IMG/VR virus record: IMGVR_UViG_3300025098_000083
Coordinates: 1 to 46,111 of that record
Direction: 5' to 3' (one strand)
Source: a virus
DNA: 46,111 bases
The notes beneath the pieces are model-generated. The model saw only the letters and a program-made list of their open reading frames with translations, had not been told where the DNA came from and made no database searches. Position 1 is the first letter of the stretch. Every line of letters begins with the position of its first letter. Shown piece after piece: positions 8,426-45,461 of this stretch. The translations under genes were made by a program, and so were the position numbers.

Positions 8426-10840
8426 ATGGTTTATACAAATTACAATAGTTCATTTCCAGACCAAGTAGTATCTGATGAAATAAAAAACAGCTACGATTAT
8501 GGCGTACAAGTTGGACAAGCTATTGAAAATGAATGGTTTAGACAAGACACCGGAGGAGATAGGTATTTACAAAATTTTCAAAATTATCATAATTTAAGAT
8601 TATATGCTAGAGGTGAGCAATCAGTTCAAAAATATAAAGATGAATTATCTATAAATGGGGATTTATCCTATTTAAATTTAGATTGGAAAATTGTACCAAT
8701 TATTCCTAAGTTTGTTGATATTATAGTAAATGGCATGACAGATAAAGGCTACGAGATACAAGCTTACGCCTCTGATCCTTTTGCTTTAGAAGAAAGAACA
8801 CAGTTTGCATTTAATGCTTTAAGGGATATTCAAAATAAAGAATATATAGAAGAATTAAATAAAGCTACAGGGCAAAACTTTTTTTCTAGTTCTCAACCTG
8901 AAAAACTACCAGCTTCAAGAGAAGAATTAGATGTTATGTTGCAATTAGACTATAAACAAAGCATTGAAATTGCAGAAGAAGAAGCTATAACAAATGTTTT
9001 TGATTATAATAAGTATAATGAAATAAAAAGAAGAATTGCATATGATTTAGCGGTTTTAGGGATTGGAGCTTCAAAAACAAATTTTAATTTATCAGAGGGA
9101 GTTAAAGTAGAGTATGTTGATCCCGCTTCTCTTGTGTACTCATATACAGAAGATCCTAACTTTGATGACATATATTATGTAGGTGAAGTTAAAAATTTAA
9201 GCTTATCAGAAGTTAAAAGACAATTTCCTTATTTAACAGATGCTGATTTAGAAGAAATACAAAAATATAAGGGGCCTAGTAATTATAGCAATTATGTTAG
9301 AAATTACAATGGAAACACAGATGATAATTTAGTTTCTATTTTATTTTTTGAGTATAAAACTTATAATAATCAAGTTTTTAAATTAAAGTATACAGACCAA
9401 GGATTAGAAAAAATATTAGAAAAGCCTGATACATTTAATCCACCAGAAAGTGATAACTTTGAAAGAATAAGTAGAAGTATTGAAGTATTATACACCGGAG
9501 CAAAAGTTTTAGGAATGCCTAAAGTATTAGAATGGAAAATGTCAGAAAATATGACACGACCATACGGAGATATTACTAAAGTAAATATGAATTATTCTCT
9601 TTGTGCTCCTAGAATGTACAAAGGAAGAATTAGTTCGGTTGTTGAAAAAATTACAACATTTGCTGATATGATACAACTTACTCATTTAAAATTACAACAG
9701 GTTTTATCTAGAGTAGTTCCAGATGGGGTTTATCTTGATATGGATGGATTATCTGAAGTAGATTTAGGAAATGGTACTAATTATAATCCAGCAGAAGCAC
9801 TAAATATGTATTTCCAAACAGGAAGTATAGTTGGTAGATCTTTAACCCAGGAGGGTGATTTAAATCGTGGTAAAGTGCCTATTCAAGAATTGCAGACATC
9901 CAACGGTATGGCTAAAATACAATCCTTAATAACTACATACCAATATTATTTACAAATGATCCGCGATGCTACAGGACTAAATGAAGCTGTTGATGCTAGC
10001 ACTCCTGATAAAAATGCATTGGTTGGATTACAAAAAATTGCAGCTGCTAATTCTAATACTGCTACAAGACATATATTAAAAGCTTTAATGTATATTACTA
10101 TAAAAACTGCAGAAAAAGTAGGATTAAGAATTAATGACGCATTACAATTTCCTTTAACTAAAAAAGCATTGCTGAGTAGCATTAATACATTTAACGTTAG
10201 CACTTTAGAAGAAATACAAAAATTAGATATACATAATTTTGGAATATTTTTAGAATTAGAGCCAGACGCCGAAGAGAAAGCGCTATTAGAACAAAATATA
10301 CAAGTTTCTTTACAGCAAAATGCTTTGAATCTTGAAGATGCTATTGATATTCGTGAAATACGAAATATGAAATTAGCTAATCAAGTATTAAAATTAAGAA
10401 GAATACAAAGACAAGAGCAACAACAAGCTGCTCAATTAGCTAATATACAAGCACAAGCTCAAGCAAATGCTAAAACAGCTGAATCTGCAGCATTGTCAGA
10501 AGTACAGAAGCAACAAGCTTTAGCTGATACCAAAGTACAAATTGAAAAAGCTAAATCTGATTTTGAAATAAATAAAATGGAACAAGAAGCCTTCATTAAA
10601 AAACAGTTAATGGCAGAAGAGTTTCAATATAAAATGAAATTAGCTCAAATACAAGCAGATGCTTTAGCTAATAAAGAAAAGCAAATAGAAGATAGAAAAG
10701 ACGAAAGAGTAAGAATACAGGGAACACAACAATCTGAACTTATTGATCAAAGAAAAAACGACTTATTACCTAAAGATTTTGAGTCAGCAGGTAATGATAG
10801 CTTAGGCGGCTTTGGATTAGAGCAATTTGAGCCTAGGTAA
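8426..10840 (+). CDS. Portal protein
   Basis: An 804-residue protein directly downstream of the terminase. The N-terminal part (YDYGVQVGQAIENEW to about residue 110, IVPIIPKFVDIIVNGMTDKG) and the core with LQQVLSRVVPDGVYLDMDG and RDATGLNEAVDAST are typical of large podovirus portals of the T7/P22 size class. The last ~150 residues (about 650-790) are Gln/Ala/Lys-rich and strongly coiled-coil-like, consistent with a crown or barrel. The portal forms the 12-subunit ring through which DNA enters and leaves the capsid. Confidence 0.88.
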   Translation: MVYTNYNSSFPDQVVSDEIKNSYDYGVQVGQAIENEWFRQDTGGDRYLQNFQNYHNLRLYARGEQSVQKYKDELSINGDLSYLNLDWKIVPIIPKFVDIIVNGMTDKGYEIQAYASDPFALEERTQFAFNALRDIQNKEYIEELNKATGQNFFSSSQPEKLPASREELDVMLQLDYKQSIEIAEEEAITNVFDYNKYNEIKRRIAYDLAVLGIGASKTNFNLSEGVKVEYVDPASLVYSYTEDPNFDDIYYVGEVKNLSLSEVKRQFPYLTDADLEEIQKYKGPSNYSNYVRNYNGNTDDNLVSILFFEYKTYNNQVFKLKYTDQGLEKILEKPDTFNPPESDNFERISRSIEVLYTGAKVLGMPKVLEWKMSENMTRPYGDITKVNMNYSLCAPRMYKGRISSVVEKITTFADMIQLTHLKLQQVLSRVVPDGVYLDMDGLSEVDLGNGTNYNPAEALNMYFQTGSIVGRSLTQEGDLNRGKVPIQELQTSNGMAKIQSLITTYQYYLQMIRDATGLNEAVDASTPDKNALVGLQKIAAANSNTATRHILKALMYITIKTAEKVGLRINDALQFPLTKKALLSSINTFNVSTLEEIQKLDIHNFGIFLELEPDAEEKALLEQNIQVSLQQNALNLEDAIDIREIRNMKLANQVLKLRRIQRQEQQQAAQLANIQAQAQANAKTAESAALSEVQKQQALADTKVQIEKAKSDFEINKMEQEAFIKKQLMAEEFQYKMKLAQIQADALANKEKQIEDRKDERVRIQGTQQSELIDQRKNDLLPKDFESAGNDSLGGFGLEQFEPR

Positions 10841-32108: not shown

Positions 32109-32455
32109 AATATTTTAAGAATAAAGAAGACTTTAGAGGGAACATGGACAAAATGGATCCTAAACTATTAACCATGCTTGATGAGCTTCGCGAAGAATAT
32201 GGTCAACCTATTATTCTTAATTCCTCATATAGACCCGCTTCTCACCCTATAGAAGTTGTAAAAAGCAAACCAGGAGAGCACACATATGGTGCCGCGGTAG
32301 ATATTAAATGTATTGGCGGTGAAAATACATTTAATTTAGTAAGTGCAGCTATTAAAGTTGGATTTAGACGCATAGGTATATCGCGTAAAAGTAATTTTGT
32401 ACACGTTGGAATTGGTTATCCTAGTGCGCCTAAAACAACTATTTGGACATATTAA
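32105..32455 (+). CDS. M15-family peptidase, endolysin-like
   Basis: A 116-residue protein of the peptidase M15A type, which cuts peptidoglycan cross-bridges. Motifs: ILNSSYRPASHPIE (substrate-binding strand and Arg43), GEHTYGAAVDIKC (zinc ligands H59 and D66) and SNFVHVGIGYP (H100). Length suits a single catalytic domain without a wall-binding module or signal peptide, so it needs the holin at 4503 to reach its substrate. It may instead be a virion-associated enzyme used at entry. The stop codon overlaps the stop of the opposing nrdA gene. Confidence 0.85.
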   Translation: MKYFKNKEDFRGNMDKMDPKLLTMLDELREEYGQPIILNSSYRPASHPIEVVKSKPGEHTYGAAVDIKCIGGENTFNLVSAAIKVGFRRIGISRKSNFVHVGIGYPSAPKTTIWTY

Positions 32456-34200
32456 CCATCACAACTTAAACATTCAGGATCCATAGCCGCTGCTGCTATA
32501 TCACCTCTTAGTACTGATTCTGTTCTAGTATAATATAAAGTTTTTATTCCGCGTTTCCAAGCTTCTATATGAACTTGATTCATCCATTTGGGCGTTGCTT
32601 CAGAAGGAAATGCTAAGTTTAAACTTACAGATTGATCTATATAGTCTTGTCTTATACCAGCTTGTCTAATCAATTCTAATTGATTTATTTCTTTAAATGT
32701 TTTAAATACATTTTTTACAGATTCTCCTTCTCCTTCTTTAGTAAGTCTTCCTCCGTGATCGTAAACCCATCCATCAAATTGTTTAATTCCTTGAATGGAT
32801 CCACCATCTTCCAAAATTTTGTCCCAAGTTTCTTTATTGTCGATTCCAATTTTTCTTAATACTTTTTTAAGTTCTTTATTTTTACGTATAAATGTTCCTT
32901 TAGCAGATTGTTCTGTAAATACATTTGCGGCCCAGGGTTCAATACCTGGTGATACATTTCCTGATAATTTACTATTAGAAACTGTAGGCGCTACCGCTCT
33001 TAAATGCGTATTACGAAATCCTGTCCCTACACACCATAAAGGTTCACCATAAGTTTCCGCTAATGCTCTTGAAGCTCTTTCAGTTTCAATTTTTATTTTT
33101 GAAAAAATTTCTCGCGTTTTGAATTGCGCTAATAAACTTTCGAAAGCGATTCCGTTTTTTTGTAGTAGGCTGTGCCATCCAAGGACACCAAGCCCAAGTG
33201 CCCTTCCTTTTTCCGCACTGCGTACAGAGTTCTCGAATCCCTTCATATTCTTTGCCTTCTGGATAAATTCTTCTAGCACACCGTCCAGGAACCATGTTGC
33301 GTCGTATATCAGATTGGTATTCTTCCATTCATCATATTTATCTAAATTAACCGATGATAAGCAGCAAACAAAACTATGACTTTCATCTGTATGTAACACT
33401 ATTTCGCTACAAATATTAGTCATATGTACTTTTAAACTATTTTTTTTGTATGCTGTTGGGTTATTTTTGTTTGCATTTCCCTTAAAAAGAATATAAGGTT
33501 CTCCAGTAGCTTTGCGCTTTTGGAGGAGTTTGGACCATTTCCCCCGTGCATCCTTATCTCCCGCTTCAAGTCTTCGCATAAACTTGTCACCGACCACAGC
33601 ACACTGGTGTAAGTTAAGGGATTGTCTATTGACATCTCCTTTAGGTTCTCTAATTTCAATCCATTCATCAAAGTCGGAATGTTCAATATTGATATTAACT
33701 GAAGCAGCTCCTCGTCTGACAGATCCTTGATTAGTGGCAAGTATTGTTGAATCGTATATTTTGCAAAACGGCACCACTCCATCACTTGTTCCATTACCTG
33801 TTATTTTAGCTCCAGCGGGACGAATCATATTAATTCCGATACCAACACCCCCGCCGTGTTTTGCTAGTAACATCATTTCTAAATTTTTAGTACCAATATC
33901 ATGCACACTATCTGCAACATCTATTCCAAAACAGCTAATTGGTAATCCTCTATCTGCACCTGTGTTAGATAATACTGGTGAAGCTAAACATAACCATCCT
34001 TTCCATATATAATCAAAAAACTTTTCGGCTAATTCAGGTTTATATAATCTTTTAGCTACAGCATTGCTTACTCTCCAATATGCATCTTTAGGAGATTCTC
34101 CATTAACTAAATAACCTCCCGCAATAGTTTTTTTGTAAACATCAGTATCACCCCAGCTGGGATAATCTTCTCCTTTTACCCAATTATCATTCCAACCCAT
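32452..34200 (-). CDS. nrdA: Class I ribonucleotide reductase, large (alpha) subunit
   Basis: A 582-residue catalytic subunit that reduces ribonucleoside diphosphates to deoxy forms with NrdB. Visible: PISCFG (C90, redox Cys), TNICSEI (N262, C264, E266, active site), FVCCLSS (C279, the partner Cys), KTLYYTRTE (double tyrosine of the radical path) and C-terminal CLSCDG (C577, C580, thiol shuttle). It lacks the N-terminal ATP-cone of E. coli NrdA, so overall activity may not be switched off by dATP. Start overlaps the end of the upstream small gene as TAATG. The three genes between nrdB and nrdA are not RNR genes. Confidence 0.95.
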   Translation of the reverse strand: MGWNDNWVKGEDYPSWGDTDVYKKTIAGGYLVNGESPKDAYWRVSNAVAKRLYKPELAEKFFDYIWKGWLCLASPVLSNTGADRGLPISCFGIDVADSVHDIGTKNLEMMLLAKHGGGVGIGINMIRPAGAKITGNGTSDGVVPFCKIYDSTILATNQGSVRRGAASVNINIEHSDFDEWIEIREPKGDVNRQSLNLHQCAVVGDKFMRRLEAGDKDARGKWSKLLQKRKATGEPYILFKGNANKNNPTAYKKNSLKVHMTNICSEIVLHTDESHSFVCCLSSVNLDKYDEWKNTNLIYDATWFLDGVLEEFIQKAKNMKGFENSVRSAEKGRALGLGVLGWHSLLQKNGIAFESLLAQFKTREIFSKIKIETERASRALAETYGEPLWCVGTGFRNTHLRAVAPTVSNSKLSGNVSPGIEPWAANVFTEQSAKGTFIRKNKELKKVLRKIGIDNKETWDKILEDGGSIQGIKQFDGWVYDHGGRLTKEGEGESVKNVFKTFKEINQLELIRQAGIRQDYIDQSVSLNLAFPSEATPKWMNQVHIEAWKRGIKTLYYTRTESVLRGDIAAAAMDPECLSCDG

Positions 34201-34544
34201 TAATATAATTTTACATATTCAATAGTTCCATTCCAATCACCTTTTATTTCTGCGCTTAATGAATCTTTATTTATTAATTTATAAACCACAAAGATCTTAT
34301 GATCAATAGCAGGATTTACGCAAATAGTTTTTATACTATCATTATTGAATAGTAAAGTTTTTTCAATAAGTCTATCATCTTGTTCAAAACTATAAGTTAA
34401 TATATTTACTTCATTATAACTATCATTAACTATAATGTTTGTTAAATAATCTGTTTCAACACTAGCCCATATTCCTTCAAAATCTTGTATTTGTCCGTAA
34501 GTAATGTTAAAAATTAAAGTTAAAAGTATTGCTAATTTTTTCAT
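34200..34544 (-). CDS. Small secreted, lipocalin-like protein
   Basis: A 114-residue protein with a clear signal peptide: MKKLAILLTLIFNITYG, likely cut before QIQDFEGIW. The mature part, FEGIWASVETDYLTNIIVND, YNEVNILTYSFEQDDRLIEK and GDWNGTIEYVKLY, is a string of beta strands resembling small lipocalin-type or META-like periplasmic proteins. It lacks a lipobox Cys. In the middle of a nucleotide-metabolism transcript such an exported protein is unexpected. It could alter the infected cell's envelope or block superinfection; function is not shown by the sequence. The signal peptide looks like those of Bacteroidota. Confidence 0.75.
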   Translation of the reverse strand: MKKLAILLTLIFNITYGQIQDFEGIWASVETDYLTNIIVNDSYNEVNILTYSFEQDDRLIEKTLLFNNDSIKTICVNPAIDHKIFVVYKLINKDSLSAEIKGDWNGTIEYVKLY

Positions 34545-34548
34545 AATA

Positions 34549-34767
34549 TTAAATTTCTAATTGTTTTTCGTTTTTTGTTTCAGTTGCTTTTTCTTTAAGT
34601 TTTTTAATTGCTTCATCATGACCAGGCATTAATTTAATAGTTTCATGAGTACCAAAAGTCATAGTTCTTAAATTTTCATTTTCGGTAATAAGTTGTTGCA
34701 GCACATTTGTAATAGCTGCAATGCGTTGCTCTACGCTGTCTAATCTACTTTGTTTTTTTGTTTTCAT
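34549..34767 (-). CDS. Small coiled-coil protein, unknown
   Basis: A 72-residue charged helical protein. Residues about 8-35 (SRLDSVEQRIAAITNVLQQL) have heptad-spaced Leu/Ile/Val and probably form a coiled coil; the C-terminal part is Lys/Glu-rich (AIKKLKEKATETKNEKQLEI). No other motif is present. It lies between the secreted protein and a small membrane protein in the RNR transcript. Confidence 0.65.
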   Translation of the reverse strand: MKTKKQSRLDSVEQRIAAITNVLQQLITENENLRTMTFGTHETIKLMPGHDEAIKKLKEKATETKNEKQLEI

Positions 34768-34800
34768 ATTATTTGATTTTATAAAACATTACTAATACTA

Positions 34801-35055
34801 TTAAAAATTGTATAAATAAATTAAATATCCTAATGTTACATTTAAATTTACTACTACTAAATTCCATTGTTTTGCTACAAATACCTGCGGCAACGATAGT
34901 ATACCTCCTGCTACATATGTAATAGCACCTACTGCATCAGGCAATAAATAAGGTGAAATCATTATAAAGCCTGCACCCATATACCCTAACCTATTAGATA
35001 ATCTTTCTAATGGGGTTAGCTTTCTTTCTTTTACAAGATTTTTTAAATTTACCAT
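34801..35055 (-). CDS. Small integral membrane protein
   Basis: An 84-residue protein with a basic N-terminus (KNLVKERKLTPLERLSNRLG) and two or three membrane spans: YMGAGFIMISPYLLPDAVGA, ITYVAGGILSLPQVFVA and LVVVNLNVTLGYLIYLY. The LSNRLGYMGAG and KQWNLVVVNLN patterns occur in similar proteins of other marine phages as I recall; their role is unassigned. A transporter-like or membrane-remodelling function is possible, and a second holin cannot be excluded. Its start overlaps the end of nrdB by seven bases. Confidence 0.72.
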   Translation of the reverse strand: MVNLKNLVKERKLTPLERLSNRLGYMGAGFIMISPYLLPDAVGAITYVAGGILSLPQVFVAKQWNLVVVNLNVTLGYLIYLYNF

Positions 35056-36017
35056 ATATCTTCAAAATCCTCCCCTTCGTTTGCTTTAGAATAATCAGTC
35101 GGGCGAACAGCAAAAAAATCAGTATGAGTATGCCCCCCGGTAAGATGATAGAACCAGTCAAGATTGCCTGCTGCTTTTTTATTAAATTCAAAGTTGAACC
35201 CACTGTTCCCGTATCCAAGTTCTTGTAATTTTTCATTAAGACGTTTTCTGATAAATTGTTTAAGATCATAGGCTTTGAGGTTTTCAATGTCCCCCAATTC
35301 AAACATTTTATCAATGTATCGTTCCTCTGCGTTGAGTATTGTTTTAGCCGCTTCAAATATTTGTTCTTTACATTCATTTATTAAATTTGGCTCTTCTTCA
35401 CACATATGCCTAAACAATTGACAACCCATTTTACTGTGAAGTGATTCGTCGCGTACAGACCACTTCATTTGTTGTCCAATACCTTTTAGTAAATTTCTTA
35501 ATTGAAAAGAATATAATACAGCAAAAGCAGAATATAAACTAACTCCTTCAGCAAAAGCAGAAAATATAGCCAAAGATTTTGCAATACCAATTTTTTCAGA
35601 TCCTTTATAAGCAACAAGGTTGTCAAACCTTTCCATAGTTGCTTCATCTTGTAGAAAAGCTTCAAAGTTTTCAAGTCCTAATGTTTCATTTAAATAACTA
35701 TAGGCTACTGCATGAATTGTTTCTTGATTACCAAACATCATAGCCATCTGTTGAATTTCATGCTTAGGAAACCACGCAACTACCTTTTGTGTCCAATAAT
35801 CGGACACTGCACATTCAGTTTGCGCAAAACCTAACAATATATTACCTACTAAATTTTTTTCTTCTTTGGTTAGTTTTTCATTCCAATCCTTTACGTCACC
35901 AGACATAGGTATTTCTGTGTGTAACCAAAATGCCTGTGCTTGTTTTAACCATCCTTCAGTATAATATTCTGGATAATCAAAAGGTTTATATGCTACTCTT
36001 AAATCAAATAGTCCCAT
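35049..36017 (-). CDS. nrdB: Class I ribonucleotide reductase, small (beta) subunit
   Basis: A 322-residue radical-generating subunit, partner of NrdA. Metal-site residues by spacing: E68 (in FAQTECAVS), E99 and H102 (NQETIHAVAY), the acid in FSAFAEGVSLY, and the pair in SVRDESLHSKM. Y106 is at the position of the E. coli radical tyrosine. The first ligand, Asp84 in E. coli, is Glu68 here; the 31-residue spacing to E99 is exact. Glu at this place is known from Chlamydia class Ic and other non-standard metal subclasses, so the cofactor may not be the usual di-iron tyrosyl site. The C-terminus GEDFEDIW is a typical NrdA-docking tail. Confidence 0.95.
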   Translation of the reverse strand: MGLFDLRVAYKPFDYPEYYTEGWLKQAQAFWLHTEIPMSGDVKDWNEKLTKEEKNLVGNILLGFAQTECAVSDYWTQKVVAWFPKHEIQQMAMMFGNQETIHAVAYSYLNETLGLENFEAFLQDEATMERFDNLVAYKGSEKIGIAKSLAIFSAFAEGVSLYSAFAVLYSFQLRNLLKGIGQQMKWSVRDESLHSKMGCQLFRHMCEEEPNLINECKEQIFEAAKTILNAEERYIDKMFELGDIENLKAYDLKQFIRKRLNEKLQELGYGNSGFNFEFNKKAAGNLDWFYHLTGGHTHTDFFAVRPTDYSKANEGEDFEDIW

Positions 36018-36020
36018 TTA

Positions 36021-36182
36021 TTATTTATCTATTATTAAACAAAAATCTATGAAAGGTAAATATACAACATGCTCATTATAATCTTTATTAATATAAGATC
36101 TTATTCCTAACAATATACCCGGATACAACCCAATACTAAGTTCCCATCCTTTAGCGTCCTTGCCCTCTGTATTTTTTAACAT
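36021..36182 (-). CDS. Small protein with GWELSIGLYPGILLGIRSY motif
   Basis: A 53-residue protein if started at ATG 36182. A longer frame from 36230 is possible but its extra residues overlap, in another frame, a better small gene (36151-36285), so the shorter start is preferred. The sequence KGWELSIGLYPGILLGIRSY then HVVYLPFIDFCLIIDK is beta-rich and recalls a small protein of unknown function found near RNR genes in marine phages. It ends three bases before nrdB. Confidence 0.65.
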   Translation of the reverse strand: MLKNTEGKDAKGWELSIGLYPGILLGIRSYINKDYNEHVVYLPFIDFCLIIDK

Positions 36183-36285
36183 AGTTTTTACTTTTTTTAA
36201 GTTGTGAAGTTTTGCTTTTTGCGTGCACATTAGGACGCTTTACTTTATTTTTTGTTTTGTAATTATTTAATATTATTTTTGCCAT
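36151..36285 (-). CDS. Tiny basic protein with VHAKSKTSQLKKSKNY motif
   Basis: A 44-residue frame, not obvious because two other frames overlap it. The protein is MAKIILNNYKTKNKVKRPN, then VHAKSKTSQLKKSKNYVKKY and RGQGR. The pattern KRPxVHAKxKTSxLKxSKNYxKxYRGQGR is one I have seen in tiny proteins of many phages, which argues strongly for this frame. The extreme basicity suggests RNA or DNA binding. It overlaps the next gene by 32 bases and the previous one by 23. Confidence 0.8.
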   Translation of the reverse strand: MAKIILNNYKTKNKVKRPNVHAKSKTSQLKKSKNYVKKYRGQGR

Positions 36286-36451
36286 AACATTTTATATTGT
36301 GCATTTCATGTAATTCAACAAGCTCTTTATACAAAAGTCTTCCTCTTGTTTCTATACTCCATTTAATAAATTTATCAATTTGTCTATCCGCATATTTAAT
36401 GCGAGCTATTTTTTTGCCTTTTCTAGGATCAATTCTACCGTTCTGTCGCAT
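36263..36451 (-). CDS. Small basic protein, uncertain
   Basis: A 62-residue frame that overlaps the endonuclease gene by 46 bases and the tiny basic gene by 23. It reads MRQNGRIDPRKGKKIARIKY, ADRQIDKFIKWSIETRGRLL and a helical remainder with YKELVELHEMHNIKCYG. The middle part looks like a genuine helical protein, but the overlap with the endonuclease is long, so the true start may lie further in and the first residues may be wrong. No family recognised. Confidence 0.45.
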   Translation of the reverse strand: MRQNGRIDPRKGKKIARIKYADRQIDKFIKWSIETRGRLLYKELVELHEMHNIKCYGKNNIK

Positions 36452-36867
36452 TCTTTTTGATTCTGTGGTTTGTATAGTGTATAATTTGGGAACTGATTCA
36501 TCACAAGTTGTTTAAATAGCTTCCAGCGCATTGGAAATGATTCATTAGCCCTTCCTTTTGTTTCAATTATAAAAGTATCTCCTATAAAGTCGGGTGTATA
36601 TTTAATAGGCAATATTCTTTTGCAGCCTCTATTCTTATAATCACCTTTGCCATTTGATTGTCTTTCATATACTTCGTTTTCAAAATGAAAACCATTTAAC
36701 AAAACAAAAGTTTCTCCTTCATACTTTGTCCGTATTTTAGCTTTTTTTAAAGCCATATACATATACCTTTCTAAGCCTGAAGCAAAATTAATACCATCAT
36801 ATGACACTTTTTTTGAAACAACCGGTCCACGTTTTCTTTTTTTATATGGTCGCCGTTTAATCATCAT
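36406..36867 (-). CDS. T7 endonuclease I-like Holliday-junction resolvase
   Basis: A 153-residue nuclease with the PD-(D/E)xK core of T7 endonuclease I: SGLERYMYMALKKA (E33), KYTPDFIGD (D93) and FIIETKGRA (E102, K104). A basic N-terminal arm (IKRRPYKKRKRG) suits DNA junction binding, though it may extend past the fold. T7 gp3 is 149 residues, so length fits. It resolves branched recombination intermediates before packaging and can degrade host DNA. The tail overlaps the small gene at 36263 and the start overlaps the MazG-like gene by 11 bases. Confidence 0.82.
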   Translation of the reverse strand: MMIKRRPYKKRKRGPVVSKKVSYDGINFASGLERYMYMALKKAKIRTKYEGETFVLLNGFHFENEVYERQSNGKGDYKNRGCKRILPIKYTPDFIGDTFIIETKGRANESFPMRWKLFKQLVMNQFPNYTLYKPQNQKECDRTVELILEKAKK

Positions 36868-37117
36868 TAAATGTTTTATTTATGTTTTTTAGCATTACTT
36901 CCTGAAGCTCTTCTGTAGTATTTTCTTTAAGTTTTTGAAGATATAATACTGCATCCATTAATTCTTCTTGTAAATGATTCATCCAAATAAACATATTAGA
37001 AGGATCTTGGTCAAGAGTTATTTTATATTTTTCATAACCTACATCAGATCGCTCTACAAACTTATCTACTACACGTTCAACTACTGGATCCCTAAATTTA
37101 ATTTTTTTCTTATTCAT
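36857..37117 (-). CDS. Small MazG-like all-alpha NTP-pyrophosphohydrolase-type protein
   Basis: An 86-residue helical protein with VVDKFVERSDVGYEKYKITL and WMNHLQEELMDAVLYLQKLK. The EELMDA segment resembles the EExxD/E metal motif of all-alpha NTP pyrophosphohydrolases (MazG/DUF550 relatives), and I know similar small phage proteins of this pattern. It sits beside a full MazG domain, so the two may form a nucleotide-sanitation pair. A second acidic motif is not obvious, so activity is not certain. Confidence 0.6.
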   Translation of the reverse strand: MNKKKIKFRDPVVERVVDKFVERSDVGYEKYKITLDQDPSNMFIWMNHLQEELMDAVLYLQKLKENTTEELQEVMLKNINKTFNDD

Positions 37118-37886
37118 CTTTCACAAATGTTCCGTTAATCATTCTACCAGTTCTATTAGATATTTCATCATAAGCAGACTGAATGCAAGTTTCAATATCG
37201 GTACCGACAAGATGGGCAAGATTAGTAAGAACAACAACGCTATCACCAATAGCATCAATAATATCTTCTTTATTATTTTTAAGTAAGGCTTGGGATAGTT
37301 CTCCAGATTCTTCATATAATTTAATTATTTGTGTTTTAGTATCACCCTTTTCATATAATCCTCTTTCTTCTGCCCAATTGCGTATATTATTAAATATATC
37401 TATTAATTCAACAGGTGGTATTAAATTGTTTTCAGGGTTTAAAAAAGCTTCATAATAAGCTTTGTTATAAATGTAACTGCGTTTTTCGTTGTACATAGAT
37501 TTTTTGCAGTTAAGTAATATCCAATTAATTGTTTCAACATTAAGCTCAAAATCACCATGTGATGTTTCCCACGATAAGTCCATGTTATCCCTTAACCAAT
37601 TGTTAAGTTGTAATTTAGGCACAGGAAATGTTGTAGTTTGTTCGGTAACGTTTATTTTCATTTTATTTAATTTTTGATTACATAAATTTTTATATTTTTG
37701 TCTGTCAACTTTATAGCCATAAGATTTTTGAAGTTCTATTTCCCGGTCAGATATATAATTTATATCATCACTAGAATCAAGAACTTCATATTCATCTAAC
37801 TTATACCCTTGTACAGTCGTTACGCGTTTATTAAGATTACGTGTAACTCCTATTTTTTTACCCGGTATGTGATAAATAAAGTACAT
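37110..37886 (-). CDS. Fusion of GIY-YIG-like domain and MazG NTP pyrophosphohydrolase
   Basis: A 258-residue protein. Residues about 1-68 (YFIYHIPGKKIGVTRNLNKR, GYKLDEYEVL, DREIELQKSYGYKVD) look like a GIY-YIG nuclease fold. Residues about 165-258 are a clear MazG domain: KLYEESGELSQALLK (E192, E193, E196) and DAIGDSVVVL (D211, D215), which bind the metal for NTP hydrolysis to NMP and pyrophosphate. The middle (about 75-160) is unassigned. MazG enzymes of phages are thought to purge modified nucleotides or alter (p)ppGpp; which applies here is unknown. It lies next to thymidylate synthase. Low-numbered ATG M76 is a possible internal start. Confidence 0.75.
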   Translation of the reverse strand: MYFIYHIPGKKIGVTRNLNKRVTTVQGYKLDEYEVLDSSDDINYISDREIELQKSYGYKVDRQKYKNLCNQKLNKMKINVTEQTTTFPVPKLQLNNWLRDNMDLSWETSHGDFELNVETINWILLNCKKSMYNEKRSYIYNKAYYEAFLNPENNLIPPVELIDIFNNIRNWAEERGLYEKGDTKTQIIKLYEESGELSQALLKNNKEDIIDAIGDSVVVLTNLAHLVGTDIETCIQSAYDEISNRTGRMINGTFVKDE

Positions 37887-37889
37887 AGT

Positions 37890-38702
37890 TTATGTTGCTA
37901 ATGGTGCTTTAATTAAAGTAGCAGGATTATAATTAATTAAAGTTATATCCTCATGAGTTGGTATATCTACTTCATGTGTTAAAGATAGCCCTTTTTTTAA
38001 TATTACTGTAGGTAATTTACCATCAGCCCTGTTTAAATATTTTAATGATTGTTCTAAATGATTATTATATAAGTGACAATCTCCCATAAAACAAATTAAT
38101 TCGCCAGGTTTATATCCAAAACCTTTAGCTAACATAAGTAGTAACAAACCATACATAGCTATATCATATGGTAAACCTAAAAAAACATCAACTGATCTTT
38201 GTGACCATGACAAGCTTAATTTACCATCATTTATATAAACTTGAAAACCATAATGACAAGGAGGCAATGCCATATCATCCAATTCATGGGGATTCCATAA
38301 GCTTGCCATAATGCGCCGTGAGCTTGGTTCCTGTTTAATTTGCTTGAGAACTTGTTCAAGCTGATCAATACCATTAAAGTTACGAAGCTGCTTACCATAA
38401 ACAGGACCAAGTGTATTATCGGTTCTTCCGGATTTTTCATAATTCTCATTCCAGTAAGTAACACCGTGATGCTGCAAGTAATCCATGTCATTGCGACCTT
38501 GTAATATCCATAGTAATTCCGTAATTGCATGATTAAAATATATTTTTTTAGCGGTTAATAATGGAAATCCGAGTTCCATATTATGTCTAAGAACTCTTCC
38601 GAAGACAGATCTCGTCCCAGTGCCAGTTCTATCTTTCTTTTCCTTTCCTCCATTGAGTATTCCTGATAATAATCCTCTGTATTCATCTTGTACGTTTATC
38701 AT
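37890..38702 (-). CDS. thyA: Thymidylate synthase
   Basis: A 270-residue ThyA, which methylates dUMP to dTMP with methylene-tetrahydrofolate. Motifs: KKDRTGTGTRSVFG (phosphate loop), SSRRIM (R129, R130 from the partner subunit), MALPPCHYGFQVY (C149 nucleophile), SQRSVDVFLGLPYDIA and DCHLYNNHLEQ (folate and dUMP contacts), and the C-terminal IKAPLAT. Full length. It pairs with RNR and MazG to supply dTTP. Its first 20 bases overlap the end of the preceding small gene. Confidence 0.96.
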   Translation of the reverse strand: MINVQDEYRGLLSGILNGGKEKKDRTGTGTRSVFGRVLRHNMELGFPLLTAKKIYFNHAITELLWILQGRNDMDYLQHHGVTYWNENYEKSGRTDNTLGPVYGKQLRNFNGIDQLEQVLKQIKQEPSSRRIMASLWNPHELDDMALPPCHYGFQVYINDGKLSLSWSQRSVDVFLGLPYDIAMYGLLLLMLAKGFGYKPGELICFMGDCHLYNNHLEQSLKYLNRADGKLPTVILKKGLSLTHEVDIPTHEDITLINYNPATLIKAPLAT

Positions 38703-38976
38703 AATAATATTTCATTGTTTTTTTTATTGCTGGCCATATATCTTTATCATTGTACGATAGAGGAGATATATGTGCCTTTTCATTTTTTTTATATGGTCCT
38801 AGTCTTATTTCTATAAACCAAGCTTCAGGAAATAATCCTTTTGTAGTAGGTTTAGGAGATATACGATAATTATTATTAATGCAATAATTAAAATGTAATT
38901 GTTCTTCCTTTGTTAATGTTGTAGCATATTTTGATAAACCTTTATAAGATTTTTTTTTAACTAAACCGCTTCCCAT
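38683..38976 (-). CDS. Small protein, unknown function
   Basis: A 97-residue basic protein, MGSGLVKKKSYKGLSKYATT, with YRISPKPTTKGLFPEAWFIE and LSYNDKDIWPAIKKTMKYYY. No membrane segment or catalytic motif is evident; the centre appears beta-rich with a C-terminal helix. It overlaps the primase-helicase end by 16 bases and thyA by 20, indicating a compact transcript. Family unrecognised. Confidence 0.6.
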   Translation of the reverse strand: MGSGLVKKKSYKGLSKYATTLTKEEQLHFNYCINNNYRISPKPTTKGLFPEAWFIEIRLGPYKKNEKAHISPLSYNDKDIWPAIKKTMKYYYDKRTR

Positions 38977-40685
38977 GGCATTGCTTCATTTATAACTGTT
39001 TCAGGGTATATGGGTATAAAACAACCTGATTTATATTCCCATTTAAAATGGGCTTCCGCACCATTTTCACCTAAGTTTTGAAATTTAACCTTAAGCACCT
39101 TGGCTTTAACAGTTTTATTATCATAATCGCGGTGAACCAATAAACCGTGATAAGACGCATCATACCATTCACCACCGCCTTTAATATTATACATAGTTGG
39201 TTCTTCAATTTTTCCATCATTATTTTTATACATTTTTGTTGGGTGAGCTACAACTATAACTAAAACATCATATTTTTTTGCAAATGTTTCAATTTTAGTT
39301 AAATATTCCATTGTATATCTATTAACATCTTCTGTTTTGCAATTTACATCTCTAATTTTATTAAATGGGTCAATAACTAAGCATTTAATACCTTTTCTTT
39401 TAACAAGTTCAGCACCTTTCTTTAAAACTGATTCTAAAGTATAGCGCTCCATGTCTATAAAAAAGAAATTGTCATTAACATGCCCAGCTATTGATTTCCA
39501 TTTTGCTCCACCAATGTCGGACTTGTGTGGCATATCTTGCCATACTTTTCGCATTAGCTTATGAGCGTGTAAAAAAGTAGGTGCATTTTCGGGTGATGCA
39601 AAGGCTGTTTTCCATTGATAATTTTGATTATAACCTACAACCATTTGATCCACAAAATCAGACTTACCACTGCTTGGTATACCAGTAACAGTAATAAACT
39701 GACCAGTATAAGTACTGAAAATATCGTCGAAATTGCTAAGCCCAATTTGGTAACCTTTTTTAAAACCATTTTCAACAAAATCTGTAATTTCACCTTCAAT
39801 GTCTTTGAATGTTGTAACGTTTTCAAGCGGGACCGCTTTCGCTTGTTGTACAAGTTTTGATAATCCTTTAGTTCCATGCTTTAATAAATATTCGTTTGCA
39901 TCTTTGCAATCATTGAAGTCTATAATAAAACAAACCTCTGCACCAAGACGTCTAATTAATTCTTGTTGCAAGGCTTGTCCTGCTTCATCTTTATCAACTG
40001 CTAAAATTATCTTTTCTTTATTTTCAAGATAGTCTATACAGTTATCTAAGTAATCTAAGTTATTACTATTTAAAGTTGCCCCGTTAGGGACAGAGATAGT
40101 ATTAAATACACCAGCTTCATGGAAAGATAATACATCCATTTCGCCTTCCACAATAATACAACTAGTGTGATTAGCAACGCTATTGATATTATAAAATACT
40201 TTTTCGGCTCCTTTAAATAGTTTAAAGTTTTTTCTAGCATCTCTATATTTTATATTAATTAATTCATTACCTATAAAATAATTAAACTTAATTGTATTTT
40301 CAAGTTTATTAGTTTGTGGCATCCATTCTTGGCCTTCTGAAACTTTTAAAGCTTTAAGGGTTTTAACAGATATACCTCTTGAATCAAACCACTTTTCAAC
40401 CTTAGTGCTTTCTATGGGTGCTACACTTTGCCCAACTGGTCGCGTGTATTCCTTTAAGCTATTACCTTTTCTTTGGTAAGTATGTAACTGAAAAGTAGTA
40501 TCACAATTATGACAAGTACCTAAACCGGTTTGCCAATCATAAGAAGCACATTTTAATTTTTGCTTTTGTGACTTCCTATCAGATGAACACAGGGGACAAA
40601 TCCCCTGCGCTTTTCCTTCTTCAAGATCATATTGGTTAAAATCTTCAATTTTATAACCATTTATTTCCTGAGTATTAATTTGCAT
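38961..40685 (-). CDS. Primase-helicase (T7 gp4-like)
   Basis: A 574-residue bifunctional replication enzyme. Zinc finger: C30, C33 and C58, C61 (with C46 nearby). Toprim primase core: CIIVEGEMDVLSFHEAG (E180) and ILAVDKDEAGQ (D231, D233). DnaB-type helicase: Walker A GIPSSGKS at 335-342, Walker B KCLVIDPFNKI (D439), and VVAHPTKM (H481). It unwinds the fork and lays down RNA primers. The zinc finger and toprim order equals T7 gp4. Start follows the stop of the tiny gene at 40686 directly. Confidence 0.93.
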   Translation of the reverse strand: MQINTQEINGYKIEDFNQYDLEEGKAQGICPLCSSDRKSQKQKLKCASYDWQTGLGTCHNCDTTFQLHTYQRKGNSLKEYTRPVGQSVAPIESTKVEKWFDSRGISVKTLKALKVSEGQEWMPQTNKLENTIKFNYFIGNELINIKYRDARKNFKLFKGAEKVFYNINSVANHTSCIIVEGEMDVLSFHEAGVFNTISVPNGATLNSNNLDYLDNCIDYLENKEKIILAVDKDEAGQALQQELIRRLGAEVCFIIDFNDCKDANEYLLKHGTKGLSKLVQQAKAVPLENVTTFKDIEGEITDFVENGFKKGYQIGLSNFDDIFSTYTGQFITVTGIPSSGKSDFVDQMVVGYNQNYQWKTAFASPENAPTFLHAHKLMRKVWQDMPHKSDIGGAKWKSIAGHVNDNFFFIDMERYTLESVLKKGAELVKRKGIKCLVIDPFNKIRDVNCKTEDVNRYTMEYLTKIETFAKKYDVLVIVVAHPTKMYKNNDGKIEEPTMYNIKGGGEWYDASYHGLLVHRDYDNKTVKAKVLKVKFQNLGENGAEAHFKWEYKSGCFIPIYPETVINEAMPWEAV

Positions 40686-41097: not shown

Positions 41098-41829
41098 TTA
41101 AAGTGTTTCATTAATAAAATATTGTTGAGGGTCAAAGTTAGGTGTATTATAATGTAAATCAAACATTTCACACGCTTTAATTACTTTATCTTCACCTTTT
41201 TGTAAAAACTTTTCAGAACAATCACATAGTTTAATTTTATGTGTATTTTTATCCATTACAATAAAAACCATTTCAAATCCAAATAGTTTATTATAAATAT
41301 AAGATTGACTGTCATAATTAAACTTATTTGCACTGAAGCGAAAATTATCAAGATTTGTTGTAGTTTTTAAATCAATAACTAAACGTTCATCATAATTAAT
41401 AATATCAGCCTTAGCTTTCCAATTAAAATCAAAGATTTTACCTACAGCAGGTTCTTCATAAATTATATTAGATCCTGTAATTAAGCTTTCAATAAACTTA
41501 TTTTTAAGTAATTTGTCCGTCATAGCTTCTACCATATCAGCTTCCTGTTGAAGTAAACACATTTCACCATCAGATATTTCTTTATAGTGTTTAGTGTTTC
41601 TACTTGAGCTTTCTATAATTTTAAAAGATTTAACTTTTTCAGGTTCTAATATAATAGTATGAAAATATCCACCAATAAGCATAGCAGCTGTTTTTTCAAC
41701 TGTATCATATAACTTTTCAGGTTCACTAAGTAAAGTTCTAATGTTTGAATTGCTTAAATATTGCTGTCCAAACTTACCATAGTAATGTTCATCTTCTCTT
41801 AGCTTATCTACTATTTCCTTGCTATTCAT
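41098..41829 (-). CDS. RecE-like PD-(D/E)xK exonuclease
   Basis: A 243-residue nuclease of the exodeoxyribonuclease VIII/PDDEXK type. Motifs: GGYFHTIILEPE (H57), KAKADIINYDERLVIDLKTT (D142, D153, K155) and NYDSQSYIYNKLFG (Q175). It probably degrades one strand of duplex ends to give single strands for the annealase encoded directly upstream; gene stop and start abut. Together they form a typical phage exonuclease/annealase recombination pair. Confidence 0.85.
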   Translation of the reverse strand: MNSKEIVDKLREDEHYYGKFGQQYLSNSNIRTLLSEPEKLYDTVEKTAAMLIGGYFHTIILEPEKVKSFKIIESSSRNTKHYKEISDGEMCLLQQEADMVEAMTDKLLKNKFIESLITGSNIIYEEPAVGKIFDFNWKAKADIINYDERLVIDLKTTTNLDNFRFSANKFNYDSQSYIYNKLFGFEMVFIVMDKNTHKIKLCDCSEKFLQKGEDKVIKACEMFDLHYNTPNFDPQQYFINETL

Positions 41830-42330
41830 TTAAAGTGTGCTTAATTCTTTTTCTAATTCAGGTGTAAGTTTATATTTATTTTTAATCTTTTCAAGTGATC
41901 CACCTTTTTTCAAATATTCTTTAGCCTCTGGGACCCAGTTGTTATTTGAAGCTGTAGTTGCATCAGCATCTGCGGTATCATCAATTAAAAATAGATTACC
42001 TAAAGCATACTTTTTAGCATAAGAACTAGCTGTGCCATATCTTTGAGGCATTGCTTGGCCTTTAAACATAACATCAACTCCTACGACTGCAGTTGCTGAA
42101 AGCTCATTTAGATTATCTCTAATGGTTGCTGTTGATTGAATTACCGAAGGATCGTTAGATATAAGTTCTTCAGTTGTAGTAACGGTTACATCAAGCTCTA
42201 GTAAGAATGGTTTTAAAGCTTCTAAGATGTCTTCGGCTGATCTATAGTAATAGTTTCCGAATTTGTTAAAGCGACTTTTTTTTGCTTTTAACTTGGTTTG
42301 AATGGTTGCTAATTTTTGTGTCAATTCCAT
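41830..42330 (-). CDS. ERF-family single-strand annealing protein
   Basis: A 166-residue protein if started at ATG 42330 (MELTQKLATIQTKLKAKKS). An upstream in-frame ATG at 42363 would add a hydrophobic MIILLTNLIFF that does not fit the family, so it was not used. The ERF signature GTASSYAKKYALGNLFLIDD, followed by TADADATT, is clear. ERF proteins anneal complementary single strands during recombination and genome circularisation. It precedes the exonuclease gene with no gap. Confidence 0.88.
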   Translation of the reverse strand: MELTQKLATIQTKLKAKKSRFNKFGNYYYRSAEDILEALKPFLLELDVTVTTTEELISNDPSVIQSTATIRDNLNELSATAVVGVDVMFKGQAMPQRYGTASSYAKKYALGNLFLIDDTADADATTASNNNWVPEAKEYLKKGGSLEKIKNKYKLTPELEKELSTL

Positions 42331-42402
42331 AAAAAAAATTAGATTGGTTAATAATATAATCACGCATCTCGTGTATTATTTACACGGAATCTCCTATTTA
42401 AC
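42331..42402 (-). promoter_or_regulatory. Gap before the annealase gene with a perfect inverted repeat
   Basis: This 72-base gap is the largest in the leftward block apart from its start. It holds the perfect inverted repeat CGTGTA-TTATT-TACACG at 42370-42386. There is no T-run on either strand, so an operator or mRNA hairpin is more likely than a terminator. The minus-strand AATAATACACGAG beside it resembles AATATATAACGAG in front of the HTH gene (43785-43797), which may be a shared promoter element. Confidence 0.4.
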
Positions 42403-43155
42403 TTACAGATAATCAAGCACTTGCGAACTATCTACGTTGTCAATTAGTTTTTGTATTGCTGCTTTTTTAATTTCGGATACTCTTACGTAAGAACTAGGTC
42501 CTTCAATACCTATAATCTTTGCGATGTCATTAGCAGAATGCTTATCGCAATCCAATCCGTAAGATAAGCGTAATACTTCATATTCTTTTGGATTTAAGTT
42601 CTTTTTTAGTATACTTTTTAAATATATATTAAGCATACCTAAATTATATGGTTCAGATCTGTCTGGCACTTGATCAAAATAACTTTCTTCGTTATCAATT
42701 TGTTCGTCTATACTTAAAAATATACTATTAAAAAATATTTCAACTATTTTTTTATCCTCAGGATTTTGGCGCATTTCGTTTAATCTATGTTCTGGTATAC
42801 GTATATGTCCTCTAGTTATATCTATTGATCTGCGTATTGCACCTTTAATTCTTTTAGATAGAAAAGATTTAATTGTTTTTTCAGGATCTTCTGATTCAAC
42901 TATCTTACTCATTTCTATTTTATCAACTGCAGCAACTAATCCTTTACTTCCTTCTTGTATAAGGTCAGTTATATCTAATATACCTGATGCTTGTTGTGAT
43001 GTTGCAAATTTATGTGCCATGTTTTCTACTAATGGTAAGAATCTTATGATTAGCTCATCTCTAGTGTAAAGATCATACGTTTGTTTATCTTCTGGCATAC
43101 TGTTTTGTAAATCAGTTTTATACCGAATGTAGTTCTTTACATTATATTTTTTCAT
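42403..43155 (-). CDS. RNA polymerase sigma-70-family factor
   Basis: A 250-residue sigma-like factor. Region 2: LPLVENMAHKFATSQQASG, ILDITDLIQEGSKGLVAAVD, FLSKRIKGAIRRSID, which are the core-binding and -10 recognition helices. Region 3-like IRIPEHRLNEMRQ follows. Region 4: LNPKEYEVLRLSYGLDCDKH, SANDIAKIIGIEG, SYVRVSEIKKAAIQKLI, the -35-binding HTH. It is complete but short, like other phage sigma factors (for example T4 gp55). It may direct host RNA polymerase to late promoters; which ones is inference. The HTH gene lies four bases upstream. Confidence 0.9.
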   Translation of the reverse strand: MKKYNVKNYIRYKTDLQNSMPEDKQTYDLYTRDELIIRFLPLVENMAHKFATSQQASGILDITDLIQEGSKGLVAAVDKIEMSKIVESEDPEKTIKSFLSKRIKGAIRRSIDITRGHIRIPEHRLNEMRQNPEDKKIVEIFFNSIFLSIDEQIDNEESYFDQVPDRSEPYNLGMLNIYLKSILKKNLNPKEYEVLRLSYGLDCDKHSANDIAKIIGIEGPSSYVRVSEIKKAAIQKLIDNVDSSQVLDYL

Positions 43156-43159
43156 GTGC

Positions 43160-43774
43160 TTAAATCATAGAGTTCAATAAATTTTTTTCGGTTTTTAATT
43201 GGTTATCAAGGTTTCTGTACACGGTTCGGGTTGAACAGCCAAGCATCCGTGCGATGGTTTGAACTGTTATGCATTCATGCATATCGTGTATAGCATTCAT
43301 GCATTCATATATATTTTCTTTTGTTGCAATCTTAGATCGACCAATTAGTTTGCCTACAATACTTAACTTTTCTGATCGGGTTAACCCAGTAATATCATTG
43401 AATATTATTTTACGCGATTTATTTTTTGGTGGTCGTTCCAAATCTAATTTATAAATGTCATTAATAATACTCATCAATATATCCTCAGATATTTCAAAGG
43501 TAATAAAATTATTTGGTTTATATGCAATATGTTTGCATAAACTTTTAAATCCTTGCTCTGATAGGTTAGGATTTAAATATGTTAACACAAGTAAATGCCA
43601 TTTCAAAGATCTATATGTATTGATCTTAGCTTTGCTTCTGAATAGTTCGTAACATTCATGCGTGCCGTCTTTATAAAACTTTCCCCATTCAAATACATTA
43701 GAAGGTTTATCTGTAACTGGATCTCTCCGATATATTATTCTATTATTATTTAAATATTCCATCCTGCGTGACAT
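43160..43774 (-). CDS. Helix-turn-helix DNA-binding protein
   Basis: A 204-residue protein. The C-terminal part ITVQTIARMLGCSTRTVYRN (about residues 168-187) is a clear HTH of the sigma-4/resolvase type. The N-terminal two thirds are a helical domain (INTYRSLKWHLLVLTYLNPN, GFKSLCKHIAYKPNNFITFE) with no recognised family. Next to a sigma factor it may be a regulator of the early-to-late switch or a replication factor. A segment just before the start (43775-43814) could hold its promoter. Confidence 0.7.
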   Translation of the reverse strand: MSRRMEYLNNNRIIYRRDPVTDKPSNVFEWGKFYKDGTHECYELFRSKAKINTYRSLKWHLLVLTYLNPNLSEQGFKSLCKHIAYKPNNFITFEISEDILMSIINDIYKLDLERPPKNKSRKIIFNDITGLTRSEKLSIVGKLIGRSKIATKENIYECMNAIHDMHECITVQTIARMLGCSTRTVYRNLDNQLKTEKNLLNSMI

Positions 43775-44248: not shown

Positions 44249-44450
44249 CAGTTGTTTCTATTAATTTATAGATATAATTTAACACCTTAAGTTCTGTCTG
44301 AGCACCTTCAATAAGGCTATTCATTTCTTCACGTGTAATATTACCTTTAAACACACCGCTTTTAAGTTCACGACGTAAATCGTTTAAGTGTATATTGGCG
44401 TGTATTACTTTAGCATAGATTTTATTGTTTGCTCTTTCTTTAGTTGTCAT
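44241..44450 (-). CDS. Small helical protein, unknown
   Basis: A 69-residue protein if started at ATG 44450 (MTTKERANNKIYAKVIHANI). A further in-frame ATG at 44471 gives 76 residues but a longer overlap with the upstream gene. The rest, HLNDLRRELKSGVFKGNITR, EEMNSLIEGAQTELKVLNYI and YKLIETTDD, is helical. No recognised family. It overlaps the next gene by eight bases. Confidence 0.6.
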   Translation of the reverse strand: MTTKERANNKIYAKVIHANIHLNDLRRELKSGVFKGNITREEMNSLIEGAQTELKVLNYIYKLIETTDD

Positions 44451-44922
44451 GTTTAAATTGTTTATCATCAATTATATTATCAAGTTGACTACGTAAAACA
44501 TCTGTAAATTTATGCCCCATTGATTCCATTTTAATTAAACAATTACGGGTAAAGGTATACATTTCTTTATTTTGTAATAATTTAATTCTATATTTATCAC
44601 GGTAGAATCTATTAGGATCAATGCTTTTAACTTGCAATCGCATTTTATTATCCAACTGTTCTTTTAGTTTTAAATATTTATTGTGATAATTTTTTTCCCA
44701 TAAAGGATTAATTACATTTTCAAATAATTTAAGACCGTGAATAACGGTTGCGTGATCTTTGCTTACTGTTCTTCCAATAGAAGTTAATGATTCTCCTGAA
44801 TAATCTTGAGCTAATTTATAATAAATTGCTCTGGGATACACTACATCACGTCGGCGTGTAGTTTCTTGTATTCTTTTATTAAATGCGTTGTTTACTGCGT
44901 TTCTAATAGCTATCGAGTTCAT
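44440..44922 (-). CDS. Stand-alone DnaA domain IV-like DNA-binding protein
   Basis: A 160-residue protein whose residues about 22-70 match the DnaA-box-binding domain of bacterial initiator DnaA: RRRDVVYPRAIYYKLAQDYS, then ESLTSIGRTVSKDHATVIHG (D56, H57, T59, V60, H62, the DHxTVxH signature). It lacks the AAA+ ATPase and other DnaA domains; the rest is a basic helical tail (RFYRDKYRIKLLQNKEMY). It probably binds DnaA-box-like DNA and may start phage replication, recruit the host machinery, or block host initiation. It sits early in the leftward transcript. Confidence 0.85.
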   Translation of the reverse strand: MNSIAIRNAVNNAFNKRIQETTRRRDVVYPRAIYYKLAQDYSGESLTSIGRTVSKDHATVIHGLKLFENVINPLWEKNYHNKYLKLKEQLDNKMRLQVKSIDPNRFYRDKYRIKLLQNKEMYTFTRNCLIKMESMGHKFTDVLRSQLDNIIDDKQFKHDN

Positions 44923-45037: not shown

Positions 45038-45243
45038 TATACTATTTCTAAATTAAGTTCATGTGCTACGTAATTAATGTGTCTGCTTGTTGTAGGACTG
45101 CTTGCGCCTACGCCATCTACCCACCAAGGCATTTTCTTTAGTGTGTTACCGTAGATTGTTGCAACGTGTGTATCATATGAAATAATTGCGTCGCCACATC
45201 TTTTAAGGTTTTGTTTGTATCTGTCAAATCTTACTGGTCTCAT
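45037..45243 (-). CDS. Small conserved phage protein (DUF8033-like)
   Basis: A 68-residue protein: MRPVRFDRYKQNLKRCGDAI, ISYDTHVATIYGNTLKKMPW and SSPTTSRHINYVAHELNLEI. The GDxIxSYxTxVAxI ... TTxHINYxAxEL pattern is one I associate with a small phage domain of unknown function (DUF8033). The family is common near early genes of marine phages. Start overlaps the preceding gene by four bases. Confidence 0.7.
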   Translation of the reverse strand: MRPVRFDRYKQNLKRCGDAIISYDTHVATIYGNTLKKMPWWVDGVGASSPTTSRHINYVAHELNLEIV

Positions 45244-45461
45244 AGTTTTATAAATGTTAATGGTTTAATATATTTGTTAATGAATTTGCCAATTGATTCA
45301 GCATTGCGCATGCCTTCAAACATAAAGGGTTCAACGCTTTTGTAAAGGTATTCTCGGTTGTTTACAAATGTAAGCGTAAGCTCACTGGTTTCGTAGTTGT
45401 ACTCCGCAAGTTTAATTGCTGCAGAGTTTACATTGATTCTTTCTTTAATTAGTTTTTTCAT
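45240..45461 (-). CDS. KTSC-domain protein
   Basis: A 73-residue protein nearly all of which is a KTSC domain: INVNSAAIKLAEYNYETSEL, TLTFVNNREYLYKSVEPFMF and EGMRNAESIGKFINKYIKPL. KTSC domains are small beta-alpha domains found in phage and bacterial proteins and are of uncertain biochemical role, possibly nucleic-acid binding (they occur fused to lysyl-tRNA synthetase-like proteins). Overlaps the upstream gene by 17 bases. Confidence 0.75.
   Translation of the reverse strand: MKKLIKERINVNSAAIKLAEYNYETSELTLTFVNNREYLYKSVEPFMFEGMRNAESIGKFINKYIKPLTFIKL

Follow-up and report, generated by a model that had tools for sequence, protein, structure and literature searches.

Gene organization of the locus

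The window, as the whole analysed stretch of 46,111 nucleotides is called here (IMG/VR record IMGVR_UViG_3300025098_000083), comes from a marine virus of bacteria and was identified as phage DNA by its genes for a large terminase (6202-8421) and a portal protein (8426-10840). It is a fragment: a sister record of 59,032 bases is 99.8 % identical and circularly permuted relative to it, and a second relative of 60,934 bases has a 77-base direct repeat at its end, so that both of these look close to complete. The 12.8 kb of the sister that are not in the window consist mostly of long repetitive tail-fibre-like open reading frames (ORFs) and small ORFs. The nearest relatives of the portal protein belong to podoviruses of Flavobacteriia, and the host is therefore probably a flavobacterium, judging from sequence similarity. 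The gene of interest is found in a block on the minus strand together with genes for replication, recombination and nucleotide supply, as follows.

44440-44922, minus strand: gene of a stand-alone DnaA domain IV protein, an ORF with an ATG start coding for 160 amino acids (Pfam match, structure model, fold)
43160-43774, minus strand: protein of 204 amino acids with a weak helix-turn-helix (HTH) match, every match below the cut-off
42403-43155, minus strand: sigma-70-type factor (phrog_351, E 5.5e-24; Pfam sigma matches below the cut-off)
41830-42363, minus strand: ERF single-strand annealing protein (PF04404, E 5.9e-28)
41098-41829, minus strand: RecE/exonuclease VIII-type nuclease, DUF3799 (profile matches)
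38961-40685, minus strand: primase-helicase (profile matches)
32452-38702, minus strand: four nucleotide-supply genes (profile matches), namely thymidylate synthase (37890-38702), a MazG-like protein (37110-37886) and the small (35049-36017) and large (32452-34200) ribonucleotide reductase

A KTSC-domain protein is encoded a few genes before the DnaA domain gene (45240-45461, minus strand). At the other end of the window there is a GroEL-type chaperonin (96-1649, plus strand; Pfam Cpn60_TCP1, 201 bits); an annotated groeL is also present in phage MW202828.

Domain structure of the protein

The original prediction, made from the DNA letters and their translations, was that 44440-44922 codes for DnaA domain IV with a DHATVIH signature and without the AAA+ domain, and the profile searches agreed with it. 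Pfam Bac_DnaA_C (PF08299) matched residues 16-65 with 43.4 bits (E 3.5e-11, cut-off 31.5 bits), and the window and two sister genomes each contained a single match to this family, all three above the cut-off. The AAA+ family Bac_DnaA (PF00308) matched none of the three records, nor the ORF itself. The protein begins at helix 1 of domain IV, DnaA domain I and the linker not being present. Its parts are the following.

44707-44922, minus strand: DnaA domain IV part, residues 1-72 (secondary structure of the model; alignment with 1j1v and 3pvp)
44854-44856, minus strand: Arg23, matching the minor-groove arginine Arg399 of E. coli (alignment with E. coli domain IV)
44737-44757, minus strand: DHATVIH signature of the recognition helix, residues 56-62, corresponding to D433-H439 of E. 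coli (ORF, residue alignment)
44470-44694, minus strand: C-terminal helical extension outside DnaA domain IV, residues 77-151 (model helices 77-101, 103-134 and 140-151)
44590-44607, minus strand: conserved tail motif FYRDKY, residues 106-111 (loose-motif count)

A profile built from 41 relatives matched six DnaA sequences of the PDB, best of all 1j1v, in which domain IV of DnaA is bound to a DnaA box (E 1e-14, the alignment running through domain IV from helix 1 onwards to the end); the seventh match at E ≤ 0.01, and the only one outside DnaA, was a designed coiled coil (E 0.0078). The AlphaFold2 model of the 160 residue protein had a mean pLDDT of 90.6, with four helices in the domain IV part (residues 3-14, 25-41, 46-52 and 57-70). 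In the structure comparison the model aligned with 3pvp at Z 15.4 and with 1j1v at Z 14.8 (rmsd 1.5 over 90 residues), and unrelated, non-DnaA structures scored Z 5.8 and below; in a Foldseek search of the model against the PDB every E-value was above 0.001. The structure prediction that had been suggested as a check thus recovered the domain IV fold, at Z of about 15 to DnaA structures bound to the DnaA box.

The residues that contact DNA were compared in 81 phage proteins and in 72 of 77 cellular proteins, five under 300 amino acids having been left out. Arginine was found at the position of E. coli Arg399, to which PMC5742627 gives a role in minor-groove contact, in 79 of the 81 phage proteins and at the Arg407 position in all of them; both positions lie outside the DH..H pattern used in the searches. 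D433, H434 and H439 were also kept in 81 of 81, a conservation that is biased since the search patterns demanded DH and H. The Gln408 position was occupied by alanine in 63 of the 81 phage proteins, against glutamine in 70 of the 72 cellular ones. One residue of the HTH turn was missing from 80 of 81 phage proteins and also from 21 of 72 cellular DnaA proteins, and the short turn was therefore rejected as a hallmark of phages only; two cellular loci with the short turn (Oscillospiraceae) still have clusters of boxes beside dnaA. Beyond domain IV, the tail adds about 75 helical residues in the model, and a motif resembling FYxxKYxxLL, searched for with a loose pattern, was present in 35 of the 81 proteins compared with 2.6 expected with shuffled tails.

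Occurrence in other phages and in cellular genomes

A scan of IMG/VR with an alignment of six members gave at least 326 relatives among the 600 pattern matches listed, 80 of which were kept for later counts. The ORFs of all 80 code for 109-230 amino acids, and in most of them the DH motif lies at about residue 56. Among annotated phages 41 records matched at E ≤ 1, mostly phages of Flavobacterium, Pelagibacter, Olleya and Cellulophaga and faecal phage contigs, and a search of viral structure models gave 35 matches at E ≤ 0.001, several of them named DnaA C-terminal. In several isolates the annotation of the protein reads 'DnaA' or HTH. The protein kind is thus already annotated in phages, and the protein of the window adds another member: a 'replication initiation protein DnaA' is annotated in Polaribacter phages P12002L and P12002S (PMC4615864), and 'DnaA' is named among the common proteins of HTVC010P-like phages (PMC6811365). 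Since the AAA+ domain was not found in any of 22 further domain-bearing records tested, such labels, which are frequent in phage records, overstate what the proteins contain. The word 'orphan' in the original prediction holds for the architecture, which has no AAA+ domain, but the family is widespread in phages and not peculiar to this one. In the open-licence literature no study on the function of a phage-encoded DnaA domain IV was found, subscription journals lying mostly outside that search.

In the genome collection 77 matches were obtained, of which only five were short (L104, L105, L106, L145 and L156); the others, of at least 358 amino acids, resemble DnaA rather than stand-alone domains. 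The plasmid search gave two records at E ≤ 0.1, labelled dnaA in one case and DnaA/Hda family in the other. One of 12 Polaribacter-group genomes (L281 / L106) has, besides dnaA, a second and short Bac_DnaA_C frame of 149-164 amino acids, which is perhaps part of a prophage.

A tree of the domain with 153 unique sequences placed all 73 phage sequences on one side of an edge with support 0.815, where they were joined by no more than two pelagiphages and one MAG contig; no long cellular DnaA fell on that side. The tree is weak, the domain having about 80 residues and the edge having been picked as the best-splitting one; it was made from forward frames with the exact motif and does not contain the MW202828 protein or eight of the 11 flavobacterial DnaA proteins. 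It suggests, weakly, that the phage proteins group apart from the cellular DnaA proteins sampled.

Replication genes and linkage to a RecE-type exonuclease

The original prediction had also supposed that the phage lacks a polymerase of its own, and no polymerase was detectable. The Pfam profiles of polymerases A, B and C matched none of the three records (the window and two sisters), and the nine large ORFs of the window gave no polymerase match against PHROGs. As a control served the related phage Panino, whose polymerase was matched by PHROGs with 398 bits and missed by both PF00476 and PF00136, so that the conclusion rests on the PHROG result. Without its own polymerase the phage has to rely on the replisome of its host.

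The exonuclease was encoded within the six ORFs preceding the domain gene in 47 of the 80 relatives, and in 39 the three ORFs after the domain gene included terS or TerL (four of the 80 loci were not placeable). In many loci a terS-like gene, assigned by position and length rather than by a match to a named family, lies between the domain gene and TerL. Additionally, a set of loci was defined by TerL: the TerL of nine of the 80 relatives' loci were used as queries and returned 80 loci, of which 51 had an upstream part of 2.5 kb or more and were counted, and 29 shorter ones were dropped. Both domain and exonuclease were present in 41 of these, the domain alone in three and neither in seven; the exonuclease was thus found in 41 of 44 loci with the domain and in none of seven without it, in a set of interrelated loci that were sought with TerLs from beside the domain and come partly from the same contigs as the first set, so that a small number of events may underlie the linkage. 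Among these TerL-defined relatives the domain has been gained and lost together with the RecE-type exonuclease.

Six of the seven loci without the domain code instead, just before terS, for a related protein of 143-164 amino acids that resembles NinB, and one of the six was named NinB/Orf recombination mediator by PHROG (phrog_72, E 1e-13). The seventh (L260:2725-3210, plus strand) codes for a protein resembling a strongly diverged form of the domain, with NHATL replacing DHATV.

Similar company was seen in annotated phages: pelagiphage HTVC204P has a nuclease and a single-strand annealing protein with its 'DnaA', Harreka has RecE and ERF with the domain protein, and phi19:3 has RecT. By tblastn no domain like that of the window was found in the first 45 kb of Panino, which is related by its portal protein and has its own polymerase; this is one phage only.

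DnaA boxes and other DNA sites

An origin marked by ordinary DnaA boxes, one of the roles first proposed for the protein, was not supported by the motif search of this genome, in which neither enrichment nor a cluster of boxes was found. The strict box TTATCCACA was absent from the window and from its near-identical sister. The looser TTWTNCACA occurred three times in the window, four times in the sister and four times in the second relative, compared with about 7-10 expected. Over the loci of the 80 relatives it was counted 60 times, against 70 to 110 expected depending on the order of the composition model (70-87 at orders 5 to 3). DnaA-box enrichment was thus found neither in the near-complete sister genomes nor, for the TTWTNCACA class, in the 80 loci. 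Panino, used as the single comparison, contained nine TTWTNCACA in its first 45 kb, where no such domain was found, with about seven expected. The strict box was found once each in Flavobacterium phage tooticki and in Harreka, where about 0.5 was expected, which is chance level. In the second relative the only TTATCCACA lies inside the DnaA domain gene itself (L011:17581-17589, G2 37581).

A depletion of boxes through avoidance was considered and rejected: the ratio of observed to expected was 0.55 at order 2, yet 3.8 % of the 1500 permutations of the motif gave values no higher than this, and the deficit shrinks under higher-order models. Only the absence of enrichment is claimed.

No iteron array was found beyond repeats that look like promoters. 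In the sister genome TTTCTGTAA repeats, considered as possible origin iterons, occur before early genes and resemble promoters. Five to six copies of TTTCTG(T/C)AA, most of them within a longer CGTnnTnTTTCTG(T/C)AA element, were present at L008:14330-15275, outside the window, before small early genes and in a divergent intergenic region; fewer were present in the second relative. They are probably tandem early promoters.

In a subset of loci a recurrent TTATTGTATAATT element with AT-rich repeats after it was seen just before terS or TerL (L026, L027, L028, L032, L033, L036, L048, L049, L052, L060 and L063). A covarying hairpin before terS was rejected as not significant, with 23 of 40 upstream regions compared with 16.5 in shuffled sequences (shuffle maximum 25).

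On the host side, upstream regions were fetched for eight of the 11 flavobacterial dnaA genes found (L282-L289), in related and thus not independent genomes, and each of the eight Polaribacter-group regions contained a single TTATTCACA near dnaA, which makes this class of box meaningful in the group. TTATTCACA is a candidate autoregulatory box of flavobacterial DnaA. A search for tandem boxes did not locate oriC in five cellular and 12 Polaribacter-group genomes: tandem TTATCCACA was found in none of the five, and tandem TTATNCACA in three of the 12, compared with two of 12 for the reversed-pattern control.

Possible function

The reading that we prefer, with a probability of about 40 %, is that the protein binds DNA at specific sites as a partner of the phage's recombination-replication module. 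The protein, DnaA domain IV with a helical tail, would be a sequence-specific binder of double-stranded DNA working within the exonuclease/annealase module. It would mark sites in phage DNA other than the ordinary DnaA box, and the tail may bring to these sites the recombination or priming proteins of the phage, or else the replisome of the host, in phages that would copy their own genome with the host polymerase. Such a protein would be a minimal initiator or a recombination guide without an ATPase.

The computed fold, the retention of R399 and R407 and the conserved tail count for this reading, as does the block on the minus strand shared with ERF, DUF3799, the sigma factor and the primase-helicase. 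The exchange of domain and exonuclease, as one unit, with NinB/Orf points to recombination and replication rather than to late transcription. Counting against it, the missing enrichment of boxes leaves no cognate site in phage DNA, and near a likely control region the one repeated element seen resembles early promoters. A changed target site would also need explaining, as the contact residues are the same as in cellular DnaA.

The same identity of contact residues would suit a decoy of host DnaA, which we consider rather improbable. The protein would sit on the DnaA boxes of oriC or of the dnaA promoter and would block or mis-time the initiation of chromosome replication, acting as a dominant negative for lack of the AAA+ domain and freeing host polymerase and nucleotides for the phage. 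The phage genomes have no box arrays that would titrate the protein, the TTATTCACA before dnaA in eight of eight regions offers a concrete candidate target in the host, and the phage has no polymerase yet has its own nucleotide genes. Tight linkage to an exonuclease is not predicted by a decoy, however, and active avoidance of boxes is not established, as the low counts shrink under higher-order models. The HTH turn, one residue short in nearly all of the phage proteins, keeps that residue in the flavobacterial DnaA sampled. If host boxes were bound, the protein would be a ready-made phage tool for switching off chromosome initiation.

A regulator of phage transcription, acting for example as an early-to-late switch at the terS promoter, seems unlikely. 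DnaA also acts as a transcription factor. The gene lies just before terS or TerL in about half of the relatives, a position that suits a regulator equally, and in some loci the recurrent TTATTGTATAATT directly precedes terS, although the element fits an ordinary promoter too. In the window, however, the large terminase gene is on the other strand and far from the domain gene, and Harreka, HTVC204P and tooticki are also without terS/TerL adjacency. Where the domain is missing, its slot is filled by NinB/Orf, a recombination mediator and not a regulator. A factor for packaging or for recognition of a pac site with terS and TerL, as a small HTH protein encoded before these genes in many relatives might be, is very improbable, since a separate terS-like gene lies between the domain gene and TerL in many loci and the gene of the window lies in a replication block.

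More broadly, and proposed here tentatively, truncated initiators that mimic the grip of host DnaA on DNA may form an old family common to Pelagibacter phages and to phages of Bacteroidota from the sea and the gut. They would be swapped with the RecE-type exonuclease as a unit against NinB/Orf, and may serve either as sequence-specific loader or guide in phage replication that depends on recombination or as dominant-negative decoy of host DnaA. A protein of 160 amino acids with cultivable relatives (Flavobacterium muminviruses, Olleya Harreka) makes either reading testable.

Comparison with known systems

The protein has the same fold as domain IV of bacterial DnaA (PF08299; 1j1v, 3pvp), with equivalents of R399 and R407 and a DH(A/T)T recognition helix. 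It differs from bacterial DnaA in having no AAA+ domain and in the extra helical tail, and most of the phage proteins have a shorter HTH turn and alanine at the Gln408 position.

A further comparison is with the annotated DnaA or Bac_DnaA_C proteins of the Flavobacterium muminviruses, Olleya phage Harreka_1, Cellulophaga phage phi19:3 and Pelagibacter phages HTVC204P and Greip, which, like the protein of the window, are short, have the same domain and are encoded near recombination genes. The four that were aligned are only 25-33 % identical to it, and the HTVC204P protein, unlike that of the window, has an N-terminal extension. NinB/Orf (phrog_72), which holds the slot before terS where domain and exonuclease are missing, belongs to a different protein family and may be functionally equivalent.

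Outside phages, the rickettsial plasmid 'DnaA-like' protein is likewise a mobile-element protein with part of DnaA; according to PMC3328469 it resembles domain I and not domain IV, and it was dropped as a precedent. The RAYT-like transposases (PMC6006769) are another case of a C-terminal Bac_DnaA_C outside DnaA; there the domain is fused to a HuH transposase, to which the ORF of the window has no match.
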